The notes beneath the pieces are model-generated. The model had not been told where the DNA came from. It saw only the letters and a list, made by a program, of their open reading frames with translations, and ran no database searches. Below are positions 1 to 61,500 of a stretch of 64,000 nt of DNA, in pieces (position 1 is the stretch's first letter; each line of letters starts with the position of its first letter). Source of the DNA: Desmodesmus armatus. Taxonomy: Eukaryota; Chlorophyta; Chlorophyceae; Sphaeropleales; Scenedesmaceae. Where the stretch lies: positions 1 to 64,000 of the forward strand of contig VIIQ02000110.1 in assembly GCA_007449985.2 (NCBI GenBank). Direction: 5' to 3'. Made by a program: the position numbers and the translations under genes.

Positions 1-756
1 CAACACGCAATCATGGCAGACGTATGAAATTGCAATTGCGAATTGCGTGCGTGCTGCGTAACAGCATGCACTTTGAAACACTGAACAGCTGCCATGCTGT
101 TCACACCTGTCAGCCTGGCATGCACATACAAGCATGTGCCCTTCTAAACAATGCAGAAAAACCACTCTAGTTACCGTGATAAACACATCAGCACCCTGTC
201 AGCCAGGGGCTGTGCTGACCTGTGCCCAGTACTGCTATGTACTGCCTGCAGATCGCCAACTGCCACTGCGCAGGACAGACAGCAGCAGCACTACCAGGAA
301 GCAGTGCAGATGCCTCGTGCCAGGTGGTTGAAAGGAATTGAGCACATTTGCAGTGCTGGGAATGCAGCTGCTGGATCCCCAATCTCTCACAGCAGCAGGT
401 GCTCAAACCACGCACGTACTCTGGAAAAATGACAGCACAGCAGCTGCGCCAACGCGCGCGCGCGCAGCGCGTGGACTGGGCATGCATGCCAGCACCAACA
501 GCAGGCTGCTGGCTCATGCCCAGGAGGCAGTACCCAAGACTAGTAAAACACACACATGGGCCCATACACGCCTGTCGAGAAGGCAAGCAAAGCTTGCACA
601 TAACAGGCTGAGGCAAGCCCAGCACAGTGCACAGGAGTAGTGCGCAGCAGCAACAACACCTTGCATGCATGCACACCCAAGAAAGCAGCAGCAGCTGGGT
701 GCAGCTGCAAATGTGCTGCAGATGTGCCCTAGTGTGCCCCTCACCCCACTCAACGA

Positions 757-3000
757 GCATAGGCGTTGGGTAATCGCCCCCAGCCCCCACACACACACGG
801 TGCTTCTCATCCAAGTAAGAAACACCTGTGGGGTCTTCAGCATCTGCCACAGCTGAGGGAGCCCTGCCACATCCTTCTCCACATGCTGAGCCCAGCCATA
901 CGTAGGCAGATTGTAAAAGACCTTGCGCACCATGTCCTGCAACTTGGTGTGGTCATCAAGGAGGCTCCAATCCTCATACAGCTGGCACCTGAGGTGGTGC
1001 TTCACAGTACCAAACAGGTGCTCAATAGGCCTGTTCAAGTCATGGCTGTAGGAGGGCAGAGGCAGCTTACAGCCATTGACAAGGCAATCAATCGTGTCGG
1101 TGGGGTCATTGGGGTTCACCACCACTTCCCACGTGGCAGTTGCCTGGACGGCGTCATTGTCATAAGACAACCAGAAGTTATCAAGATAGTTACTTTGTTC
1201 CACTCCTTGACTATGTGGTAGAGGTTGTTCTCAAATTCCTCCCTGGTCATCTTCCCTGCCTTGCGGCTGCCGTCTTGAATCTGCAGGGAAGCAAAAAGGA
1301 GGCGGGGCACGGGGAAGCTGCCTCAGTGGAAGTTCAGGGCGCTACGTGCCATGCGGGGGGAGGGGCTCAGGGTTGAGAAGTATGGCAGTGATGGGGCTGA
1401 GCTGTGGTTCCCTGATGGCACCTCCCTGCCAGTTGGCCACTACTCAGGAGAGTACCAGTTGCATTGGCGGCTCCAAGGGTGTCCCCGTGGCACCCCCCAC
1501 CTGCGGTGGCAACTAGCACAACAGTGCGGGACCCCTGTGATCTGTGGTGTGCCTTCTGTATGTACAGTGAGGAGGCATGGAGGCAGCAGGGCATGCGTGT
1601 GCTACCAGCCTGTGAGCTGAGCTTCATGGACCTGTTGAGGAGGTGGGGGGTGGACAGGGAGTTCAGCCTTCAGGTGGTGCCGGCTTTTTGGCCGTGGCCC
1701 ATGGACTTCTTCCACATGCAGCAGGGGTACTTTGTGCAGGTGGATGGGAGGTGCCATTGGGTTGCTATGTACCACCACAGCACATGGGTGGTGTTGTGGC
1801 GCGACATGATGCAGAACATGGCAGCAGTGCAGCAAGGTGGTCGGTGGTGCGGGTGCACACAGAGGATCTTGGTAATGCTGACTGCATTGCTGCCGCCCTT
1901 GAGTCTGCGGCAATGGGCTACACCCTTGTGCTGACACCCTCATATAGTACAGCCTAGTGCGCTGGGGTTCCTTTGATGTGCCCTATTTGCAGCTGCTGAA
2001 GTGGTTAGTTCCCAACTGCCAGGGTCACACTGACGGTTACGGCAATCACACAATTTCCCCAATGTAACAGGCTCACCTCGTACTCCATGTCCCGCTCTAC
2101 CGCATTGCCATCCAGCCTTGTGTTGATGTGCCGTTGGATCTTGGTGGTCCAGTGGTGAACTCCATATACACCACACCCCCTCTGTGCGCAAAGGCGGGGT
2201 GGGCGGTCACTGCAACAATGAACTTCACAGTGACATGCTTGTGGCCCTTTTTCAGCTTCCTCGGCACCACATCAGAGAAGTTGAGGTCATGCTTGTCACA
2301 CCAGACAAAAACATCAGACTCAGTGTACTTGTCGACAGTGAATGAAGACTCATCAATGTAAATGGTGTGGTTCAAGAATGCTGGCCAACCCTCTTGAATG
2401 CCCAAACAGTGCTTGGCGTAGTCCACACGCTCCTGCAATTCCTGTGTTGTGAAGGAGTGCTTGAAGAACAGCTTGCGGCGCACAAGGGAGGGGTCAGCGT
2501 CGTGCATGGCATGCAGCAGCTGGTCTGAAAACTTGAGGCCGTTGTTGGTCATAATTCCTTCAAACGGGGGCTCTCCCTGATGGCCTCTCCCAGGCTGGTG
2601 AAGTGTACCCTGTGCTGGACTGTGTTGCCCTTCACTTTCTCCTCAACAAGCTTCCCCTCCTTGCAAATCTGAGCTGCTTCAAGAGCCTCCTTCTCGTTGC
2701 ATTTGCGACTACGGCCAGACCTGTGTGCATCGTCCACACTCCCGTTCTCAATCCAATGACCCCACCAGGTGCGCAAGTAGTTGAAATCTTTGCTACCAAT
2801 GAACTGCTGCTCGTCCTCTGGCAGCTGCTGATTGAGAGAGTCAAGAATGCCCTTCAGGGCATGGTGCGCCTTGGCAAAGTCTGGCCCAGCTTGCCCCAGA
2901 AACATGAAGCACAACATGCACCCCAACACCCTCACCCCCGTCTTTTCCGGGCGTACTTGGTGCCCCTGACATGCTCTCGCAGCAATTCCTCTGCGCAGCG
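757..3000 (-). pseudogene. Transposase, array copy 1, frameshifted
   Basis: This is the same gene as the intact copies at 5029-7289 and 9316-11578. The reading frame is broken by several one-base indels: the first exon is split near 2550 and 2950, and the second near 800 and 1190. The donor near 2075 and the acceptor near 1290 are still recognisable. The lesions are nearly all single-base losses, so unpolished long-read sequence is as likely an explanation as true decay. Confidence 0.8.
1351..2067 (+). pseudogene. Intron-nested nuclease-like ORF, array copy 1, frameshifted
   Basis: This is the counterpart of the intact ORF at 9920-10639, with the same ATG context and the same terminal ATG-TAA. 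One-base differences near 1505 (a lost C in CTGCGCGTGG), near 1845 and in a C run near 1950 shift the frame. It should be read together with the intact copy. Confidence 0.7.
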
Positions 3001-3107
3001 CAAAAGAAGGCAGCAGCAGGTGCAGTGTGCGGCACTTGTCAGCCACTACTAGGGTACAGGGTACACTTGGCTAAACCCTAACTTTGACCGGTTCTCACTG
3101 GAGAGTG

Positions 3108-3781
3108 CAGTGGGGCAAAAAGTAACTTGTCTAGTTTCAGGGCGCGTGTGGCGGGACCTGCGCTGTATCAAGCAAAACTACTTGATATATCTGATACCCT
3201 GGGACTTTGCTCGGGGGCTCTAGCTGCTGCTGGCTATTGGTCATCCGTCCACATCGCCTAACAACCTTGACTGCCAGGATTCGAACTGTAAGGGGGAACG
3301 TGGGTGCTGTGCAAACGTTCAAGTGTCTTGGGCGCCTGTTGGTGGCAGTGCGTGGTGTGAGTGTGCAGGTCGTTGGCCAGCTGCTGCTTGATCGACAGGT
3401 TGATCTGCCTGCGCTGCAGCTGCTGCTGTGCGCTGCCTCAAATTTGTCTCTTTACTGCATTCTTTCCTGTACATCAGCTATCTCCCCTGGCCAGCGCTGC
3501 ATTGCGTGTGCAGCAAGGCAGTGTCCCCCAGACACTGACAGTTGGGCTTTTGCAGCTGCTTGTGTGGAGCCTGGCAGTGCAGCAGTCGACCCCAGTTTGG
3601 TCAAACGGCCCTATCCTGCCCTCAGCACAGGACTCGTGTTCATACAGGTGTGCTGTTACAGGTGTGTGCCTGCTACTGAAACATGCTGGCAGCCCCTAGC
3701 TCTAGCTTGCTGCCTGCTGCTGGCTGCACCACAAGCAAAGTCAAGGTTATTGGCTGTGCCAAGTTACTTTTTGCCCCACTG
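3108..3781. mobile_element. Inverted-repeat-bounded 675 bp module, copy 1
   Basis: The left end reads CAGTGGGGCAAAAAG and the right end at 3760-3781 is its exact reverse complement over 22 bases. A CAGTG terminus followed by an A run resembles Tc1-family terminal inverted repeats. The interior of about 630 bp has no convincing protein and lies on the 5' side of the minus-strand transposase of the same unit. It could be a MITE or the end of a larger autonomous element. The inverted repeats are certain; what they bound is inferred. Confidence 0.75.
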
Positions 3782-5028
3782 CACTTTCACCAAGGAGAGG
3801 CTGGCAAATGCTCAGGCTGCATGGATCTAGCAGGACTCCACCATAGATGTGTATCCCCTGAAGAGTCCTTTCTGCACACCTGGGTCGAGGGTGCCCTCCT
3901 GCTCCATGATTGCAAGCCAGTGCTGCTGCTAGAGGATCTGCAGCAGCAATGCCCCAGTGCTGAACGCGTCCCGTGCCTTTGCTTGTGCCCAGAGTGCACT
4001 GGAAGCTGAACAATTTGCCACTGTTTGCCTGGCCTTTTGACGCCGCTGCTTGTGTGCAGAATTATCGAAGTGACGGGGGTGATTCAGCTGCGGAACAGCA
4101 CGTCCTGCCAGGTGCGTTGATCTGCTGCGTGAACGTAGGGTTGTTTTGATGAGATTGATTAGAACCAGCTGCGCGTAATCAAGGCTGGAAGTGCAGTCCA
4201 CAGGAAGGGCACGTTGCAGATTGTGTCCGAGGTTGGGCTGTGTGTGCGCAAACGGCAGCAGGATGCATCTGCAACACGCAATCATGGCAGACGTATGAAT
4301 TGCAATTGCGAATTGCGTGCGTGCTGCGTAACAGCATGCACTTTGAAACACTGAACAGCTGCCATGCTGTTCACACCTGTCAGCCTGGCATGCACATACA
4401 AGCATGTTGCCCATTCTAAACAAATGCAGAAAAACCACTCTAGTTACCGTGATAAACACATCAGCACCCTGTCAGCCAGGGGCTGTGCTGACCTGTGCCC
4501 AGTACTGCTATGTACTGCCTGCAGATCGCCAACTGCCACTGCGCAGGACAGACAGCAGCAGCACTACCAGGAAGCAGTGCAGATGCCTCGTGCCAGGTGG
4601 GTTGAAAGGAATTGAGCACATTTGCAGTGCTGGGAATGCAGCTGCTGGGATCCCCAATCTCTCACAGCAGCAGGTGCTCAACCACACGCACGTACTCTGA
4701 AAAAATGACAGCACAGCAGCTGCGCCAACGCGCGCGCGCGCAGCGCGTGGACTGGGCATGCATGCCAGCACCAACAGCAGGCTGCTGGCTCATGCCCAGG
4801 AGGCAGTATACCCAAGACTAGTAAAACACACACCATGGGCCCATACACGCCTGTCGAGAAGGCAAGCAAAGCTTGCACATAACAGGCTGAGGCAAGCCCA
4901 GCACAGTGCACAGGAGTAGTGCGCAGCAGCAGCAACACCTTGCATGCATGCACACCCAAGAAAGCAGCAGCAGCTGGGTGCAGCTGCAAATGTGCTGCAG
5001 ATGTGCCCTAGTGTGCCCCTCACCCCAC

Positions 5029-7289
5029 TCAACGAGCAAAGGCGTTGGGGTAATCGCCCCCAGCCCCCACACACACACGGTGCTTCTCATCCAAGTAAGA
5101 AACACCCTGTGGGGTCTTCAGCATCTGCCACAGCTGAGGGAGCCCTGCCACATCCTTCTCCACATGCTGAGCCCAGCCATACGTAGGCAGATTGTAAAAG
5201 ACCTTGCGCACCATGTCCTGCAACTTGGTGTGGTCATCAAGGAGGCTCCAATCCTCATACAGCTGGCACCTGAGGTGGTGCTTCACAGTACCAAACAGGT
5301 GCTCAATAGGCCTGTTCAAGTCATGGCTGTAGGAGGGCAGAGGCAGCTTACAGCCATTGACAAGGCAATCAATCGTGTCGGTGGGGTCATTGGGGTTCAC
5401 CACCACTTCCCACGTGGCAGTTGCCTGGACGGCGTCATTGTCATAAGACAACCAGAAGTTATCAAGATTAGTTACTTTGTTCCACTCCTTGACTATGTGG
5501 TAGAGGTTGTTCTCAAATTCCTCCCTGGTCATCTTCCCTGCCTTGCGGCTGCCGTCTTGAATCTGCAGGGAAGCAAAAAGGAGGCGGGGCACGGGGAAGC
5601 TGCCTCAGTGGAAGTTCAGGGCGCTACGTGCCATGCGGGGGGAGGGGCTCAGGGTTGAGAAGTATGGCAGTGATGGGGCTGAGCTGTGGTTCCCTGATGG
5701 CACCTCCCTGCCAGTTGGCCACTACTCAGGAGAGTACCAGTTGCATTGGCGGCTCCAAGGGTGTCCCCGTGGCACCCCCACCTGCGCGTGGCAACTAGCA
5801 CAACAGTGCGGGACCCCTGTGATCTGTGGTGTGCCTTCTGTATGTACAGTGAGGAGGCATGGAGGCAGCAGGGCATGCGTGTGCTACCAGCCTGTGAGCT
5901 GAGCTTCATGGACCTGTTGAGGAGGTGGGGGGTGGACAGGGAGTTCAGCCTTCAGGTGGTGCCGGCTTTTTGGCCGTGGCCCATGGACTTCTTCCACATG
6001 CAGCAGGGGTACTTTGTGCAGGTGGATGGGAGGTGCCATTGGGTTGCTATGTACCACCACAGCACATGGGTGGTGTTGTGGCGCGACATGATGCAGAACA
6101 TGGCAGCAGTGCAGCAAGGTGGTCGGTTGGTGCGGGTGCACACAGAGGATCTTGGTAATGCTGACTGCATTGCTGTCGCCCTTGAGTCTGCGGCAATGGG
6201 CTACACCCTTGTGCTGACACCCTCATATAGTACAGCCTAGTGCGCTGGGGTTCCTTTGATGTGCCCTATTTGCAGCTGCTGAAGTGGTTAGTTCCCAACT
6301 GCCAGGGTCACACTGACGGTTACGGCAATCACACAATTTCCCCAATGTAACAGGCTCACCTCGTACTCCATGTCCCGCTCTACCGCATTGCCATCCAGCC
6401 TTGTGTTGATGTGCCGTTGGATCTTGGTCGTCCCAGTGGTAAACTCCATGTACACCACACCCCCTCTGTGCGCAAAGGCGGGGTGGGCGGTCACTGCAAC
6501 AATGAACTTCACAGTGACATGCTTGTGGCCCTTTTTCAGCTTCCTCGGCACCACATCAGAGAAGTTGAGGTCATGCTTGTCACACCAGACAAAAACATCA
6601 GACTCAGTGTACTTGTCGACAGTGAATGAAGACTCATCAATGTAAATGGTGTGGTTCAAGAATGCTGGCCAACCCTCTTGAATGCCCAAACAGTGCTTGG
6701 CGTAGTCCACACGCTCCTGCAATTCCTGTGTTGTGAAGGAGTGCTTGAAGAACAGCTTGCGGCGCACAAGGGAGGGGTCAGCGTCGTGCATGGCATGCAG
6801 CAGCTGGTCTGAAAACTTGAGGCCGTTGTTGTTCATAATTTCCTTCAAACGGGGGCTCTCCCTGATGGCCTCTCCCAGGCTGGTGAAGTGTACCCTGTGC
6901 TGGACTGTGTTGCCCTTCACTTTCTCCTCAACAAGCTTCCCCTCCTTGCAAATCTGAGCTGCTTCAAGAGCCTCCTTCTCGTTGCATTTGCGACTACGGC
7001 CAGACCTGTGTGCATCGTCCACACTCCCGTTCTCAATCCAATGACCCCACCAGGTGCGCAAGTAGTTGAAATCTTTGCTACCAATGAACTGCTGCTCGTC
7101 CTCTGGCAGCTGCTGATTGAGAGAGTCAAGAATGCCCTTCAGGGCATGGTGCGCCTTGGCAAAGTCTGGCCCAGCTTGCCCCAGAAACATGAAGCACAAC
7201 ATGCACCCCAACACCCTCACCCCCGTCTTTTTCCGGGCGTACTTGGTGCCCCTGACATGCTCTCGCAGCAATTCCTCTGCGCAGCGCAA
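5029..7289 (-). CDS. Tc1/mariner/IS630-type DDE transposase, copy 2 (two exons)
   Basis: The exons are complement(6360..7289) and complement(5029..5562). The intervening 797 bp starts with GTGAGC and ends in a pyrimidine tract plus CTGCAG, and joining in phase 0 gives one frame to the stop. An N-terminal helix-turn-helix region is followed by RSGRSRK, as in Tc1-type proteins. The first catalytic Asp is in IYIDES (about residue 218), the second in SYDNDAVQ (351 or 353), and the Glu is in RPIEHLFG (397), the classic SPDLNPIEH-like block. The frame opens at a TTG; the first ATG would be about residue 30, or an upstream exon may exist. Protein and splice sites match copy 3. The gap between the second Asp and the Glu is 43 or 45 residues, longer than in DD34E Tc1 proteins. 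Confidence 0.85.
5633..6350 (+). pseudogene. Intron-nested nuclease-like ORF, array copy 2, two one-base losses
   Basis: This is identical to the intact ORF of copy 3 except for a missing C in the C run near 5777 and another near 6235. These break the frame into pieces at 5633-5902 and 5746-6240. Both differences are in homopolymers, so sequencing error cannot be excluded. If they are real, only copy 3 can make the full protein. Confidence 0.7.
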
Positions 7290-7393
7290 AAGAAGGCAGC
7301 AGCAGGTGCAGTGTGCGGCACTTGTCAGCCACTACTAGGGTACAGGGTACACTTGGCTAAACCCTAACTTTGACCGGTTCTCACTGGAGAGTG

Positions 7394-8068
7394 CAGTGGG
7401 GCAAAAAGTAACTTGTCTAGTTTCAGGGCGCGTGTGGCGGGACCTGCGCTGTATCAAGCAAAACTACTTGATATATCTGATACCCTGGGACTTTGCTCGG
7501 GGGCTCTAGCTGCTGCTGGCTATTGGTCATCCGTCCACATCGCCTAACAACCTTGGCTGCCAGGATTCGAACTGTAAGGGGGAACGTGGGTGCTGTGCAA
7601 ACGTTCAAGTGTCTTGGGCGCCTGTTGGTGGCAGTGCGTGGTGTGAGTGTGCAGGTCGTTGGCCAGCTGCTGCTTGATCGACAGGTTGATCTGCCTGCGC
7701 TGCAGCTGCTGCTGTGCGCTGCCTCAAATTTGTCTCTTTACTGCATTCTTTCCTGTACATCAGCTATCTCCCCTGGCCAGCGCTGCATTGCGTGTGCAGC
7801 AAGGCAGTGTCCCCCCAGACACTGACAGTTGGGCTTTTGCAGCTGCTTGTGTGGAGCCTGGCAGTGCAGCAGTCGACCCCAGTTTGGTCAAACGGCCCTA
7901 TCCTGCCCTCAGCACAGGACTCGTGTTCATACAGGTGTGCTGTTACAGGTGTGTGCCTGCTACTGAAACATGCTGGCAGCCCCTAGCTCTAGCTTGCTGC
8001 CTGCTGCTGGCTGCACCACAAGCAAAGTCAAGGTTATTGGCTGTGCCAAGTTACTTTTTGCCCCACTG
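7394..8068. mobile_element. Inverted-repeat-bounded 675 bp module, copy 2
   Basis: It has the same 22-base inverted ends as the module at 3108-3781. Inside the array, the flanks GTG (left) and CAC (right) extend the inverted match by a few bases. Confidence 0.75.
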
Positions 8069-9315
8069 CACTTTCACCAAGGAGAGGCTGGCAAATGCTC
8101 AGGCTGCATGGATCTAGCAGGACTCCACCATAGATGTGTATCCCCTGAAGAGTCCTTTCTGCACACCTGGGTCGAGGGTGCCCTCCTGCTCCATGATTGC
8201 AAACCAGTGCTGCTGCTAGAGGATCTGCAGCAGCAATGCCCCAGTGCTGAACGCGTCCCGTGCCTTTGCTTGTGCCCAGAGTGCACTGGAAGCTGAACAA
8301 TTTGCCACTGTTTGCCTGGCCTTTTGACGCCGCTGCTTGTGTGCAGAATTATCGAGGTGACGGGGGTGATTCAGCTACGGAACAGCACGTCCTGCCAGGT
8401 GCGTTGATCTGCTGCTTGAACGTAGGGTTGTTTTGATGAGATTGATTAGAACCAGCTGCGCGTAATCAAGGCTGGAAGTGCAGTCCACAGGAAGGGCACG
8501 TTGCAGATTGTGTCCGAGGTTGGGCTGTGTGTGCGCAAACGGCAGCAGGATGCATCTGCAACACGCAATCATGGCAGACGTATGAATTGCAATTGCGAAT
8601 TGCGTGCGTGCTGCGTAACAGCATGCACTTTGAAACACTGAACAGCTGCCATGCTGTTCACACCTGTCAGCCTGGCATGCACATACAAGCATGTTGCCCA
8701 TTCTAAACAAATGCAGAAAAACCACTCTAGTTACCGTGATAAACACATCAGCACCCTGTCAGCCAGGGGCTGTGCTGACCTGTGCCCAGTACTGCTATGT
8801 ACTGCCTGCAGATCGCCAACTGCCACTGCGCAGGACAGACAGCAGCAGCACTACCAGGAAGCAGTGCAGATGCCTCGTGCCAGGTGGGTTGAAAGGAATT
8901 GAGCACATTTGCAGTGCTGGGAATGCAGCTGCTGGGATCCCCAATCTCTCACAGCAGCAGGTGCTCAACCACACGCACGTACTCTGGAAAAATGACAGCA
9001 CAGCAGCTGCGCCAACGCGCGCGCGCGCAGCGCGTGGACTGGGCATGCATGCCAGCACCAACAGCAGGCTGCTGGCTCATGCCCAGGAGGCAGTATACCC
9101 AAGACTAGTAAAACACACACCATGGGCCCATACACGCCTGTCGAGAAGGCAAGCAAAGCTTGCACATAACAGGCTGAGGCAAGCCCAGCACAGTGCACAG
9201 GAGTAGTGCGCAGCAGCAACAACACCTTGCATGCATGCACACCCAAGAAAGCAGCAGCAGCTGGGTGCAGCTGCAAATGTGCTGCAGATGTGCCCTAGTG
9301 TGCCCCTCACCCCAC

Positions 9316-11578
9316 TCAACGAGCAAAGGCGTTGGGGTAATCGCCCCCAGCCCCCACACACACACGGTGCTTCTCATCCAAGTAAGAAACACCCTGTGGG
9401 GTCTTCAGCATCTGCCACAGCTGAGGGAGCCCTGCCACATCCTTCTCCACATGCTGAGCCCAGCCATACGTAGGCAGATTGTAAAAGACCTTGCGCACCA
9501 TGTCCTGCAACTTGGTGTGGTCATCAAGGAGGCTCCAATCCTCATACAGCTGGCACCTGAGGTGGTGCTTCACAGTACCAAACAGGTGCTCAATAGGCCT
9601 GTTCAAGTCATGGCTGTAGGAGGGCAGAGGCAGCTTACAGCCATTGACAAGGCAATCAATCGTGTCGGTGGGGTCATTGGGGTTCACCACCACTTCCCAC
9701 GTGGCAGTTGCCTGGACGGCGTCATTGTCATAAGACAACCAGAAGTTATCAAGATTAGTTACTTTGTTCCACTCCTTGACTATGTGGTAGAGGTTGTTCT
9801 CAAATTCCTCCCTGGTCATCTTCCCTGCCTTGCGGCTGCCGTCTTGAATCTGCAGGGAAGCAAAAAGGAGGCGGGGCACGGGGAAGCTGCCTCAGTGGAA
9901 GTTCAGGGCGCTACGTGCCATGCGGGGGGAGGGGCTCAGGGTTGAGAAGTATGGCAGTGATGGGGCTGAGCTGTGGTTCCCTGATGGCACCTCCCTGCCA
10001 GTTGGCCACTACTCAGGAGAGTACCAGTTGCATTGGCGGCTCCAAGGGTGTCCCCGTGGCACCCCCCACCTGCGCGTGGCAACTAGCACAACAGTGCGGG
10101 ACCCCTGTGATCTGTGGTGTGCCTTCTGTATGTACAGTGAGGAGGCATGGAGGCAGCAGGGCATGCGTGTGCTACCAGCCTGTGAGCTGAGCTTCATGGA
10201 CCTGTTGAGGAGGTGGGGGGTGGACAGGGAGTTCAGCCTTCAGGTGGTGCCGGCTTTTTGGCCGTGGCCCATGGACTTCTTCCACATGCAGCAGGGGTAC
10301 TTTGTGCAGGTGGATGGGAGGTGCCATTGGGTTGCTATGTACCACCACAGCACATGGGTGGTGTTGTGGCGCGACATGATGCAGAACATGGCAGCAGTGC
10401 AGCAAGGTGGTCGGTTGGTGCGGGTGCACACAGAGGATCTTGGTAATGCTGACTGCATTGCTGTCGCCCTTGAGTCTGCGGCAATGGGCTACACCCTTGT
10501 GCTGACACCCTCATATAGTACAGCCCTAGTGCGCTGGGGTTCCTTTGATGTGCCCTATTTGCAGCTGCTGAAGTGGTTAGTTCCCAACTGCCAGGGTCAC
10601 ACTGACGGTTACGGCAATCACACAATTTCCCCAATGTAACAGGCTCACCTCGTACTCCATGTCCCGCTCTACCGCATTGCCATCCAGCCTTGTGTTGATG
10701 TGCCGTTGGATCTTGGTCGTCCCAGTGGTAAACTCCATGTACACCACACCCCCTCTGTGCGCAAAGGCGGGGTGGGCGGTCACTGCAACAATGAACTTCA
10801 CAGTGACATGCTTGTGGCCCTTTTTCAGCTTCCTCGGCACCACATCAGAGAAGTTGAGGTCATGCTTGTCACACCAGACAAAAACATCAGACTCAGTGTA
10901 CTTGTCGACAGTGAATGAAGACTCATCAATGTAAATGGTGTGGTTCAAGAATGCTGGCCAACCCTCTTGAATGCCCAAACAGTGCTTGGCGTAGTCCACA
11001 CGCTCCTGCAATTCCTGTGTTGTGAAGGAGTGCTTGAAGAACAGCTTGCGGCGCACAAGGGAGGGGTCAGCGTCGTGCATGGCATGCAGCAGCTGGTCTG
11101 AAAACTTGAGGCCGTTGTTGTTCATAATTTCCTTCAAACGGGGGCTCTCCCTGATGGCCTCTCCCAGGCTGGTGAAGTGTACCCTGTGCTGGACTGTGTT
11201 GCCCTTCACTTTCTCCTCAACAAGCTTCCCCTCCTTGCAAATCTGAGCTGCTTCAAGAGCCTCCTTCTCGTTGCATTTGCGACTACGGCCAGACCTGTGT
11301 GCATCGTCCACACTCCCGTTCTCAATCCAATGACCCCACCAGGTGCGCAAGTAGTTGAAATCTTTGCTACCAATGAACTGCTGCTCGTCCTCTGGCAGCT
11401 GCTGATTGAGAGAGTCAAGAATGCCCTTCAGGGCATGGTGCGCCTTGGCAAAGTCTGGCCCAGCTTGCCCCAGAAACATGAAGCACAACATGCACCCCAA
11501 CACCCTCACCCCCGTCTTTTTCCGGGCGTACTTGGTGCCCCTGACATGCTCTCGCAGCAATTCCTCTGCGCAGCGCAA
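9316..11578 (-). CDS. Tc1/mariner/IS630-type DDE transposase, copy 3 (two exons)
   Basis: The exons are complement(10649..11578) and complement(9316..9849), joined in phase 0 across a 799 bp intron with a GAG|GTGAGC donor and a TTGCTTCCCTGCAG acceptor. Together they encode 487 residues from the TTG at 11578, or 458 from the first ATG at 11491. Order of parts: HTH region about 60-110, first Asp 218, intron after residue 310, second Asp 351/353, Glu 397, then a C-terminal tail. The intron sits between the first two catalytic Asp residues, so an unspliced transcript could not make an active enzyme. An in-frame TAG lies just upstream of the TTG, so the native start is unresolved. Confidence 0.87.
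9920..10639 (+). CDS. Putative PD-(D/E)XK nuclease ORF, nested antisense in the transposase intron
   Basis: This 239-residue ORF starts at ATG 9920 and ends ATG-TAA at 10637-10639, with a TGTAA polyadenylation-like motif overlapping the stop. It lies entirely inside the 9850-10648 intron of the opposite-strand transposase. Residues 117-136 read PMDFF then FVQVDGRCHW; with a following RD at 151-152 and GGRLVRVHTED at 163-173, this matches the layout of DUF559/Vsr-like PD-(D/E)XK nucleases (D...ExDGxxH...RD...G..V.RV). The usual Glu is Gln here (Q130), so activity is uncertain. A CxxC pair at 67/70 and Cys 63 and 88 could bind zinc. Family assignment is my pattern reading, not a search result. 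The near-exact fit of ORF to intron recalls a homing-type element, but this is inference. Confidence 0.6.
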   Translation: MRGEGLRVEKYGSDGAELWFPDGTSLPVGHYSGEYQLHWRLQGCPRGTPHLRVATSTTVRDPCDLWCAFCMYSEEAWRQQGMRVLPACELSFMDLLRRWGVDREFSLQVVPAFWPWPMDFFHMQQGYFVQVDGRCHWVAMYHHSTWVVLWRDMMQNMAAVQQGGRLVRVHTEDLGNADCIAVALESAAMGYTLVLTPSYSTALVRWGSFDVPYLQLLKWLVPNCQGHTDGYGNHTISPM

Positions 11579-11682
11579 AAGAAGGCAGCAGCAGGTGCAG
11601 TGTGCGGCACTTGTCAGCCACTACTAGGGTACAGGGTACACTTGGCTAAACCCTAACTTTGACCGGTTCTCACTGGAGAGTG

Positions 11683-12357
11683 CAGTGGGGCAAAAAGTAA
11701 CTTGTCTAGTTTCAGGGCGCGTGTGGCGGGACCTGCGCTGTATCAAGCAAAACTACTTGATATATCTGATACCCTGGGACTTTGCTCGGGGGCTCTAGCT
11801 GCTGCTGGCTATTGGTCATCCGTCCACATCGCCTAACAACCTTGGCTGCCAGGATTCGAACTGTAAGGGGGAACGTGGGTGCTGTGCAAACGTTCAAGTG
11901 TCTTGGGCGCCTGTTGGTGGCAGTGCGTGGTGTGAGTGTGCAGGTCGTTGGCCAGCTGCTGCTTGATCGACAGGTTGATCTGCCTGCGCTGCAGCTGCTG
12001 CTGTGCGCTGCCTCAAATTTGTCTCTTTACTGCATTCTTTCCTGTACATCAGCTATCTCCCCTGGCCAGCGCTGCATTGCGTGTGCAGCAAGGCAGTGTC
12101 CCCCCAGACACTGACAGTTGGGCTTTTGCAGCTGCTTGTGTGGAGCCTGGCAGTGCAGCAGTCGACCCCAGTTTGGTCAAACGGCCCTATCCTGCCCTCA
12201 GCACAGGACTCGTGTTCATACAGGTGTGCTGTTACAGGTGTGTGCCTGCTACTGAAACATGCTGGCAGCCCCTAGCTCTAGCTTGCTGCCTGCTGCTGGC
12301 TGCACCACAAGCAAAGTCAAGGTTATTGGCTGTGCCAAGTTACTTTTTGCCCCACTG
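11683..12357. mobile_element. Inverted-repeat-bounded 675 bp module, copy 3; right edge of the array
   Basis: It has the same inverted ends. The right repeat occupies 12336-12357, and similarity to the other units stops at its last G. The next bases are TGTACACGG instead of CACTTTCACC. This marks the terminal CACTG as a real element boundary. Confidence 0.8.
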
Positions 12358-47900: not shown

Positions 47901-48309
47901 CCTTCTGGGTTGTTGTGCTATCTCCGTGATATTAGTGAATGGCTGGCATGAGCTCTTGAGTTTCATAGCTACAGGTGTAACTTTGATTTGATTTGATTTG
48001 GGTGTTGCCTGCAGGGGCCATGTTCGTCTGCATTGGGGCAAGGCTGGGTGGCCCGACAAGGGCTGCTGGCACGGTGACAAGCACTACGGAGACAACTGGT
48101 GCCACTTCGGTTGCGCAGTCAAGCAGCTCGATCCGACTGGGAAGTTTTCTGACTCGGCAGCGGATAGGTGGACATGGGCGGGTGTGGACTTGGAAAAGTG
48201 CTGTGGGCCAGAGGGCTTTAGGGTTAGCGCAGATGGCTGTGAATGCAAGGTGCAGCATGAGAGGGCTATGAGTGACTGCCCTCCTGCACCGTTCTATTCC
48301 TCAAGGTGA
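41911..48309 (+). CDS. Secreted L-gulonolactone-oxidase-like FAD oxidoreductase, paralog A (16 exons)
   Basis: Exons: 41911-42041, 42149-42233, 42655-43023, 43295-43366, 43665-43742, 43916-43995, 44242-44374, 44647-44713, 44995-45101, 45390-45582, 45847-45935, 46401-46475, 46833-46927, 47219-47328, 47623-47713 and 48015-48309. They give 689 residues with all phases closing. A signal peptide is followed by a VAO/PCMH FAD domain: GEGHSWNQ (GHS, where the family attaches or contacts FAD), SVGGAVATGTHGSNL and LRVSVGKLGILGRVKLQL. An ALO-type C-terminal domain follows, with FFWLPQQQQ and the LHWGKAGW (HWxK) motif, then a Cys-rich tail of about 80 residues. The family oxidises aldonolactones (ascorbate route in animals and plants); the substrate here is unknown. 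Intron 1 uses a GC donor (GTCAG|GCAAGC). TGTAA lies about 130 bp past the stop. Confidence 0.88.
46965..47032. repeat. 20 bp direct repeat x3 in intron 13 of paralog A
   Basis: GGCAGCGCCCATCAGTTCTT occurs at 46965, 46985 and 47011, with a 6 bp spacer before the third. The palindrome CTCCGGTCACCGGAG (46951-46965) abuts it. Confidence 0.9.
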
Positions 48310-57420: not shown

Positions 57421-58519
57421 CTCTTTGTTGCATGTTGAGACTACACCGAATGTTGCACAATTCCCGGCCCGCTAAAATGAACACACGCGGTTTCCAACAG
57501 CAGGGGCCTCGCATGCTCCATTTAGCTACACCAACGCATTGCGGAGGTTTTGCAATCGATTATAAGCTTGTCGGATCGGCCATTGCGGGCCTGTGGCTAA
57601 AGCAGTGTGCACCGGAAACGTGTACAGTTAGCGATGGAGGCACGATAGCGCTTATAAGTCTGAGAAATGAACTGATATATAAGTAGAACACATTTTGGCC
57701 TGTCTGTGGGACCAAGCCATGCGGCCACACAGACGAAGCTGGTAGTCACACGGGCTGCATGTCAACTTCAACGGCCCTCGCCGTGGCAGACAGTTAGTGC
57801 ACACAATGTTCCACGACGTGCAGACGTCGTCGTGTTGCTGCCAAGCAAGCCAAAAATGCACGCTATGTGGGCAGGCGATCAGTTCAGGCTGCAGGGTTGT
57901 GCACGGCACATCTAGATCTGCTGATCTGCAGCCACAACTGCATTGCCACAGATCAGGACAAGGCAACGTTGCTGCAGCTTCTCAGGCACAGTAAAGATAA
58001 GAATGTGCTGGACCAGCAAGGCCTGGCTGCCTGCACTGCAGCACAGCAGCCGCCGGCAGAACAGCAACAGCAGCAGCACCCCATCGTAGCCCCATCATCA
58101 GCCAGCACCAGGCGATCCCAGCGTGTGCAAGCACAGTTGGATCAACAGCAGCAGCAACAACAACAGCAGCAGGATCCAAGTGCCAGTCGCAAACGCCAGG
58201 AGCAACCAAGTTACAGCAGCACTGCAACCACCTGATGCCACACACTTGACAGCACAACAACCAACACACAGCATGGCACCAAACGCCCAGCAACACACCG
58301 CACAGCGCACTCTTGCGTTTGCACGCAAGCATTGGCTGCTGTGGATTGCAACAGCAGCCCAGCTGGTGGCCAACATGCATGCATACGGCTGGTGTCAGCG
58401 TGTAGCACTGGGAGCCACAAATAGCCCCTGCGGCGTGACATGCGGCAGCTCAACGGCTGCGGCATGACAGGCGGCAGCCAAAAACAACGGCAGCTCAACA
58501 TGCTTACTTCATCTCTGGT
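57421..58519. repeat. 1.1 kb direct repeat, left copy
   Basis: It starts at TTGCATGTTGAGACTAC and ends at CTTCATCTCTGGTTT; the right copy is 59448-60517. The copies are roughly 93-95% alike, with small indels. Both hold a conserved 122-codon Gln-rich ORF. No TG...CA LTR ends or target duplication could be made out. Confidence 0.85.
57867..58235 (+). CDS. Gln-rich ORF in the left 1.1 kb repeat, unknown function
   Basis: The 122 codons contain TLLQLLRHSKDKNVLDQQG, a Q5 and a Q10 run and a basic SRKRQ patch. The same ORF, with a handful of substitutions and no frameshift, is in the right repeat (59892-60260). In another frame just upstream a KCTLCGQAISSGC Cys pattern is seen. The start is not ATG-secured, so this may be an exon of a larger repeat-borne gene. 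Confidence 0.3.
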   Translation: MGRRSVQAAGLCTAHLDLLICSHNCIATDQDKATLLQLLRHSKDKNVLDQQGLAACTAAQQPPAEQQQQQHPIVAPSSASTRRSQRVQAQLDQQQQQQQQQQDPSASRKRQEQPSYSSTATT

Positions 58520-58549: not shown

Positions 58550-61500
58550 TCAGGCATCATCGTCTGTCTCGTAGCTGCTGCTGCTGACATCCCCTTCCAA
58601 CGCTGCCATAAGTTCGTCCTCATCATCACCATCCAGCCCGCCGACCCCATCGCTGCCCTCGTCCCCTTCCTCAAACTCTCCCTCGTCTATGGAGATGTCA
58701 AGCTCGTCAGGGTCGATGCCGGCAGCCATGGCCTCTTCGTAGAGGTCGGCAAACTCCTCACGTAATGCGTTGACAGCTTCTTCATCAAGGTCTGAAGCAC
58801 CTGCGACAGCAGGATGTGGCAGGATCAAAGTTCATTAGCAGGGCGCACTGTGGGGTAGGCAAATTGCGCACGCAGTGCGTTGACGGCTTCTTCATCGAGA
58901 TCGGAAGCACCTGATACAGTGGTGGGACACAGCACAATTCATCCGATGGTGATTGCACAGCAAGGACAGGAGGTGGTTGCGCAGTGTTTTCATAGGGGTG
59001 GGGGAAGAGGTGGCGGCCATGGCCTCTTCGTAGAGATCGGCAAACTCCTCACGCAATGCGTTGACAGCTTCTTCATCCAGGTCTGAAGCACCTGCAGAAA
59101 AGTGGTGGGCAGCACAGTAGGTGATCACTCGTGAGTGACTGCACAACAAGCACGGGAACATAGGTGGATGCGTGCAGACTGAGGGGTGCGGGGGACAGGC
59201 AGAGCCACGGCCTCCTGATAAAGGTTGGCAAACTCCTTGCGCAACGGAGAGGATATGTATGACGACGTGTGCATGGCACGGCGGGTCAATGTCATGTGTG
59301 CATGTTTGTGTGGTGTTTTCTGGCGCTGCAGCTTCAATTGCTGATGCTGTCAGTTGGTCACAGACCTAAACCCTGGTTGGTGGTCTGCTGCTGGCTGGGT
59401 GAAGTCTGCTGCACGCCCTTGACGTGGTCAAGTGGCGTGCAGTCCTGTTTGCATGTTGAGACTACCCCGGATGTTGCACAATTCCCGGCCCGGAAAAGTC
59501 ACACACGCGGTTTCTAAGAGCATGGGCCTACGCATGCCCCAGTTAGCCAGACCAACACATTTCCGAGGTTTTGCGATCAATTATAAGCTTGTCGCATCGG
59601 CCATTGCGTGCCTGTTGGCAAAGCAGTGTGCACCGGAAACGTGTGTACAGTTAGCGATGGAGGCACGATAGCGCCTGTAAGTCTGAGAAAGGAACTGATA
59701 TATGAGTATAATACATTTTGGCCTGTCGGACCTATCCATGCGGCCACACAGACGAAGCTGGTAGTCACACGGGCTGTACGTCAATTCAACGGCCATCGGC
59801 CATCGCCGTGGCAGACAGTTAGTGCACACAATGTTCCAAGACTTGCGGACGTCGTCGTGTTGCTGCCAAGCAAGCCAAAAATGCAAGCTATGTGGGCAGG
59901 CGATCAGTTCAGGCTGCAGGGTTGTGCACGGCACATCTACATCTGCAGATCTGCAGCCACAACTGCATTGCTACAGATCAGGACAAGGTAACGTTGCTGC
60001 AGCTTCTCAGGCACAGTAAAGATAAGAATGTGCTGGACCAGCAAGGCCTGGCTGCCTGCACTGCAGCACAGCAGCTGCCGGCAGAACAGCAACAGCAGCA
60101 GCACCCCATCGTAGCCCCATCATCGGCCAGCACCAGGCGATCCCAGCGTGTGCAAGCACAGTTGGATCAACAGCAGCAGCAACAACAGCAGCAGCAGGAT
60201 CCAAGTGCCAGTCGCAAACGCCAGCAGCAACCAAGTTACAGCAGCACTGCAACCACCTGATGCCACACACTTGACAGCACAACAACCAACACACAGCATG
60301 GCACCAAACGCCCAGCAACACACCACACAGCGCACTCTTGCGTTCGCACGCAAGCATTGGCTGCTGTGGATTGCAACAGCAGCCCAGCTGGTGGCCGACA
60401 TGCATGCCTACGGCTGGTGTCAGCGTATAGCACGGGGAGGCACACATAGCCCCTACAGCGTGACATGCGGCAGCCAAAAACAACGGCAGCTCAACATGCT
60501 TACTTCATCTCTGGTTTTGGTTTGATCTCATAAATTGATTAAAGGATCAACGCTGGTTTTGGGATACGATGTGCTGACGTCGCATCGCTGTAGAGTGCTG
60601 TTGGTACGGTTGGTACACCTTGCTACATTCACACTGCAGTTTCCCAGGACTTAGACCATGGTGCTGCGAGGTTCGGCAAGGCTTTTGCCTGTGTTCACAC
60701 CGGGCCACAACGCACCCAGTGTGAACATCTCCTCCCAAGTTCACCAGGGAGGAGATGTTCACAATGGGTGCTCTGTGGCCCAGTGTGAGCAAAGACAAGG
60801 GGTTGCTGTTCGACCGCAGCGCTGCCTCCAAGCTCAACAGGGCCTTGAAGCACAACAAGACTCTGCTTGAGATGGAGGACACAATGGTAGCAGGTGTGTA
60901 CTGCTACTGGCTGGTGGGTGCTGCGCGCGCACCCACTTGTTTTGGGTGTGTGCCCCTGGTGTGTGTGTGTCAGTAATAATCATGGGCACCGTGGTGTGAG
61001 TGCTCTGGGGTTTGACATGACATTTGCCCCATGTGTGTGTGTATTCTGGACAAATGCTGGTGGCTTGGGCCACAAGGCGGACAATCGCGCATTTGGGTGC
61101 TTTTAGGACTGTTGTCAGCACTGCCATGCAGTACTGCAACTAGTTGCTGAGGGGGGATGCACAGTCTGAGACTGTGGTGCCCTCTCATGGATTACAGGCT
61201 GGTCAGCAGGCATGCATGCAATGCAAGCAGTGAGTGGCAGCCTGAGACACACACTTCAGACATTATGTGCAACAGCGGCTAACTGACGTGGCACCCCTTG
61301 CGTGCGGCTGTTGAGCAACATCCACACAACCGGTAGCACCAAGGGTACCAAAAGTGTGACGTCACACTAGACTGTAGTTGACTACAGTGGCGATTGGTAG
61401 TCACCATTCACAGGGATAGCAAAGCAAGATTATACGAGGCCTCACCTTCGTCTAGCTCATCATCAAGTCCGTCCAGGGCAGCTTGCGCACGTAGGCCATC

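Follow-up and report, generated by a model that had tools for sequence, protein, structure and literature searches.

A composite DNA transposon of Desmodesmus armatus carries a predicted Vsr-like nuclease gene antisense within the intron of its transposase gene

We analysed a stretch of 64,000 nucleotides (hereafter the window) of Desmodesmus armatus contig VIIQ02000110.1, in which a transposase gene on the minus strand (9316–11578) contains an intron filled by an open reading frame (ORF) on the opposite strand. The host of this ORF is a composite DNA transposon, in which an internal unit (INT) is flanked by long terminal direct repeats (LTDRs) in the order LTDR-INT-LTDR. The antisense ORF is predicted to encode a nuclease, and we consider it rather probable that it is the second gene of the transposon, the transposase providing mobility and the nuclease driving the gain of units in the way proposed below. 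The original prediction for this DNA had been made from the sequence alone; the LTDRs, the arrays that they form and the parallel with KolobokP transposons are new relative to it. No precedent for a nuclease gene nested in a transposase intron was found among the open-licence PubMed Central (PMC) papers listed, judged by title and start of abstract.

In the family of the window's element (family I), the internal unit A of ∼3.6 kb holds the DDE transposase gene with the nuclease gene antisense inside its intron, while the LTDR, here called B, ends in perfect 22-bp inverted repeats with the termini 5'-CAGTG...CACTG-3' (Table 1). Spacings of 3615 (A-A) and 4288 (A-B-A) show that A follows A either directly or with B in between. 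Elsewhere in the genome we found B-A-B monomers (contigs C283 and C75, both read through, and C14, judged from the spacing of its ends), a B-A-A-B dimer (C682) and solo copies of B (C542, C73 and C6). Identical 3 bp flank six of the seven family-I insertions that were read at both ends, three solo LTDRs and one B-A-A-B among them; these target site duplications (TSDs) are TGG, AGG, AGG, TGT, CTC and GGT, and the exception is C75 with GTA/GCA. This count rests on family I, the ends of family II being impossible to fix, and leaves out C16 (the same insertion as C14) as well as C34, C713, C558 and C618, where either the element or array runs on or one end is unread. Families II and III have the same arrangement, with LTDRs of ∼655 bp and 677–680 bp respectively that show no significant similarity to B. 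An array edge is not always B, as the left edge of the C667 array is a fragment of A. A-A junctions seem 2–3 bases longer than A plus A, which depends on where the ends are set, and the extra bases could be excision footprints. Among database relatives, the sizes of the longest contigs pair up (P0006 and P0048 both 4289; P0009 and P0049 both 3596), which suggests that nuclease and transposase share units elsewhere too.

Table 1. Features of the composite element in the window
Feature	Position	Strand	Remarks
Transposase exon 1	10649..11578 (5' end provisional)	-	N-terminal helix-turn-helix (HTH)-type region and first catalytic Asp (IDES)
Transposase intron	9850..10648	-	799 bp, phase 0, GTGAGC...TGCAG; putative, from splice signals
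Transposase exon 2	9316..9849	-	Second Asp (YDND), Glu (PIEH); stop included
Antisense ORF	9920..10639	+	720 bp, 239 aa from ATG; Cys/His-rich N-terminus and predicted Vsr/EDxHD-type PD-(D/E)XK core
Palindromic CTGCAG	9847..9852		Acceptor edge; same place in all three families (window, L021, L019)
Internal unit A (INT), third array unit	8069..11682		From comparison with other loci
LTDR B, right-hand end of array	11683..12357		675 bp; ends in 22-bp inverted repeats CAGTGGGGCAAAAAGTAACTTG; found elsewhere as solo copies with a 3-bp TSD
LTDR B separating array units 2 and 3	7394..8068		From locus comparison
LTDR B separating array units 1 and 2	3108..3781		From locus comparison
Tandem array	1..12357		Two complete units plus a partial unit; contig starts inside array

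The 799-bp transposase intron, as first predicted, was borne out in its coordinates, canonical splice signals and phase. On the minus strand its edges read GAG/GTGAGC ... CCCTGCAG/ATT, exon 1 ending in ...DMEYE and exon 2 opening with IQDGS..., and the reading frame of exon 1 is interrupted by stops within it. It lies between the motifs IYIDES and LSYDND, and therefore, as had been claimed, between the first and second of what we take by motif to be the catalytic Asp residues. A spliceosomal intron is plausible given the U6 RNA matches in the genome, five of six of which are above the cut-off. The CTGCAG palindrome at the acceptor could act as a 3' splice site on either strand.

For the antisense ORF, too, all coordinates agree with the original description, which included its own ATG and a stop overlapping TGTAA (the TAA sits inside it). 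The open frame begins at 9848, and homology reaches beyond the ATG at 9920 upstream to about 9878, where relatives begin M-x-x-G-K-L, so the start codon used in the focal copy is uncertain. An upstream exon for the nuclease, considered on account of this homology past the ATG towards CTGCAG, was largely dropped, relatives having at the corresponding position an ATG of their own within the intron. The nesting is kept across three families of the genome whose nuclease proteins share 28–33% identity: the homologous introns (799, 848 and 799 bp) occupy the same place in the same phase, and each is filled by the antisense ORF, with the donors GTGAGC, GTGGGT and GTGAGT, the acceptor CTGCAG in all, and 9, 21 and 9 bp from ORF stop to donor edge. 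Searches of the genome (115.8 Mb in 831 contigs, with counts that haplotype contigs may inflate) gave at least 160 matches to the ORF, and at least 52 of those listed cover residues 1–239 free of stops at ≥97% identity (150 of 438 candidates scored); family III has at least 40 full-length intact nuclease matches (149 of 383 candidates scored). With the three families and first-round hits as the query, 37 database proteins were found at E ≤ 0.1, among them copies nearly identical to the window's protein. Two further nuclease copies in the window's array (1309–2064 and 5591–6347) are 99.5–99.7% identical to the intact one and have single-base gaps, which are either real decay or sequencing or assembly errors.

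Judged by its relatives, the intron of the transposase gene is old. Database transposase relatives reach the intron site in 21 of 22 cases (P0059 stops before it) and show, where exon 1 ends, a conserved Tyr-x followed by Val and then intron sequence; on the protein sequences, the Val fits the codon of a GT donor. None of these 21 is intronless or continues into exon 2, and a 120-base query of joined exons matched with its exon-2 side only, and never with both, in all 40 scored genome places (of 202 candidates). Since neither an intronless transposase nor a joined-exon site was found in these sets, recent homing into the transposase gene is not supported. It had been suggested that a homing-type gene colonised the transposon intron, with intronless relatives as the expected empty sites, or that this is a two-protein transposon with the second gene antisense. 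The latter fits best, while the former may describe a distant origin. A related possibility, that the nuclease gene is an independent selfish homing-type passenger of transposase introns and of no use to the transposon, we regard as unlikely. It would agree with the location in an intron and with a Vsr/EDxHD fold common to the homing endonuclease I-Bth0305I, and predicted viral proteins of similar fold (with TM-scores of only 0.3–0.4) include a group I intron endonuclease (E 7.6e–5) and a phage homing endonuclease (E 1.1e–3). However, all three families examined carry the nuclease at the same site, transposase relatives that reach this site all enter the intron and none crosses to exon 2, the joined junction is absent from the scored places, and scans of viral and prokaryote contigs (query A5) gave no relatives.

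The AlphaFold2 model of the antisense protein (pLDDT, the predicted local distance difference test, 88) has a core of the Vsr/EDxHD nuclease type, with Vsr and I-Bth0305I as top structural matches. Across nuclease relatives E103, D133, H150 and D166 are near-invariant, and as candidate active-site residues they fit the order and approximate spacing of the Vsr/EDxHD active site at the sequence level. Predicted structure and conserved residues together support the PD-(D/E)XK fold (Vsr/DUF559-like, related to homing endonucleases) proposed for this protein earlier, and the protein may be an active nuclease. Vsr and I-Bth0305I are alike to it in the predicted core and in the arrangement of conserved acidic and His residues; neither gives a significant sequence match, and unlike them the antisense protein has a Cys/His-rich N-terminus and lies in a spliceosomal-type transposon intron. 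The structural search bears little on the first 80 residues, and the Cys/His-rich region is presumably a zinc site. A plain Foldseek search of the PDB was of no help with either model, and no useful match to the nuclease came from NCBIfam or PHROGs. Slightly less probable still than a selfish passenger is a protein that is no DNA nuclease and uses its Vsr-like fold for RNA binding, as RAP/FASTKD-like regulators do, so that it would bind the transposase pre-mRNA and control splicing of its host intron. That the Vsr/EDxHD site keeps its E, D, H and D near-invariant argues against it, as does the comparison with FASTKD4, reported inactive, which has Asn where Vsr has His69; the paper on FASTKD4 also mentions nuclease activity of FASTKD5, and the FASTKD class is not uniformly inactive.

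The closest parallel to the composite element is KolobokP (Kojima and Bao 2022, PMC9587614). These composite-like DNA transposons, reported there from animals only, have LTDRs of ∼450 or 660 bp with terminal inverted repeats (TIRs) of their own, occur as solo LTDRs and as multimers with and without internal LTDRs, make TSDs of 3–5 bp and encode, besides a DDE transposase, a nuclease of homing type whose gene lies on the complementary strand; by their LTDRs they are set apart there from all other DNA transposons. The D. armatus element shares the LTDR-INT-LTDR plan, LTDRs that bear short TIRs of their own and resemble the ∼660-bp class in length (here ∼655–680 bp), solo LTDRs, both kinds of multimers, short TSDs, and a DDE transposase with a predicted homing-type nuclease on the opposite strand. 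On the other hand, the Kolobok C/DxxH motif between the second D and the last E is present in none of our three families, and the termini are 5'-CA (as given above for family I) rather than 5'-RR...YY-3'. The KolobokP nuclease is a His-Me finger protein encoded downstream of the transposase, whereas the one described here is predicted to be Vsr/EDxHD-like and is nested in an intron. INT-INT junctions have 3–4 bp deletions in KolobokP versus the apparent 2–3 extra bases here, by the chosen ends. It appears that the composite element works like KolobokP and arrived independently at the same design, independence being judged from the different proteins and not from a tree. That this plan recurs in a second system with other proteins suggests a functional bond between direct repeats, nuclease and arrays.

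The transposase looks by its sequence like those of Tc1/mariner-IS630, and matches to HTH_32, SETMAR and, weakly, DDE_3 are in line with its earlier description as Tc1/IS630-type. In contrast to Tc1/mariner-IS630 elements (Mos1, SETMAR), our element has 3-bp duplications without TA, composite ends, an intron and 44–48 residues between the second D and E. Because a Tc1/mariner-like transposase is combined with no TA duplication, no Kolobok motif or termini and another nuclease fold, we file the element under neither family. ISL2EU with YqaJ is another DDE transposon with an accessory enzyme of PD-(D/E)XK type (exonuclease-type). We know of no intron nesting for the accessory nucleases of ISL2EU or KolobokE. 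The latter is likewise a DDE transposon with a second activity of PD-(D/E)XK type, but of the exonuclease kind, and its description there includes no LTDRs (PMC9587614).

Beyond what was observed here (how the genes are laid out and conserved, the predicted fold, the composite structure, the TSDs and the arrays), we propose the following scheme. The transposase, once spliced, would act at the inverted termini of the LTDRs, moving whole elements or solo LTDRs. The nuclease would cut a site in the LTDR or at LTDR/INT junctions, and repair of the break from a neighbouring unit would add units and give rise to long arrays; the same repair would bring back LTDRs that excision has removed. The nested position in the intron would hold the two genes together and pit sense against antisense transcripts. 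The array part of this scheme is the induced unequal crossover of the KolobokP authors, carried over by analogy; they proposed the link between nuclease and multimers as one still to be validated (PMC9587614). One array counts against the nuclease being strictly required in cis. At C193:29313–57491 (L040/L041), family III is represented by at least 10 units of a deletion derivative, each 2502 bp long and made of an LTDR, exon 1 and the nuclease without its start, with no exon 2. Supply of the nuclease in trans or plain unequal crossing-over would explain it; the candidate view of this array as a nuclease-only one showing nuclease-driven amplification was rejected on the composition of its unit. 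A broader proposition, to which we would give somewhat less than an even chance, is that a second lineage, with another transposase and another nuclease fold, independently evolved a composite LTDR transposon with a homing-type nuclease placed antisense in a spliceosomal intron of its own transposase, where, through the targeted repair of breaks, it restores LTDRs and makes arrays grow, the antisense overlap switching between jumping and local amplification. If the host alga can be cultured, the link between nuclease and arrays could be tested in the host itself.

It is improbable that most of the array and repeat structure is an artefact of assembly, or else ordinary satellite DNA for which a transposon was the seed, with the nuclease unlinked to multimers. 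Several arrays do stand at contig ends, contigs C14 and C16 show one insertion in two orientations, haplotype contigs may inflate the counts, and the C193 array was formed by a derivative without an intact nuclease start. Against this, B-A-B, B-A-A-B and solo B insertions have target duplications of their own, and the same arrangement recurs in three families with LTDRs that have no significant similarity to one another. A subtelomeric satellite was discarded as a candidate, no telomere-type repeats being found in 28 loci and the window. The shared insertion and flanks of C14 and C16 (L036-L039), in opposite orientation, suggest haplotype contigs in the assembly. L018 (C254:1–9728) is an inverted junction at which two family-III arrays face each other, its initial 9.7 kb and the reverse complement of that segment matching at 96%.

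The length of the antisense ORF is in itself no proof of function. In two sets of 2000 simulated stretches of 799 bp, 16 and 8 respectively had an open run of ≥255 codons in any of six frames, and eight such runs lie in the remaining 51.5 kb of the window. Within families dN/dS (the ratio of nonsynonymous to synonymous divergence) ranges from 0 to 1.43 on 1–9 differences, too few for a verdict, which makes this part of the check on ORF conservation uninformative; between families third codon positions diverge only slightly more than first positions. The ORF is more than chance because it is conserved in the homologous intron of three diverged families, and with the database matches and a confident predicted fold with conserved residues added, we reject a chance or non-functional ORF as having a negligible probability. 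Outside the array the window also has a direct repeat of ∼1 kb (57428–58453 and 59449–60477, 93% identity) and a shorter direct-repeat pair at 48010 and 56230 (87% identity).
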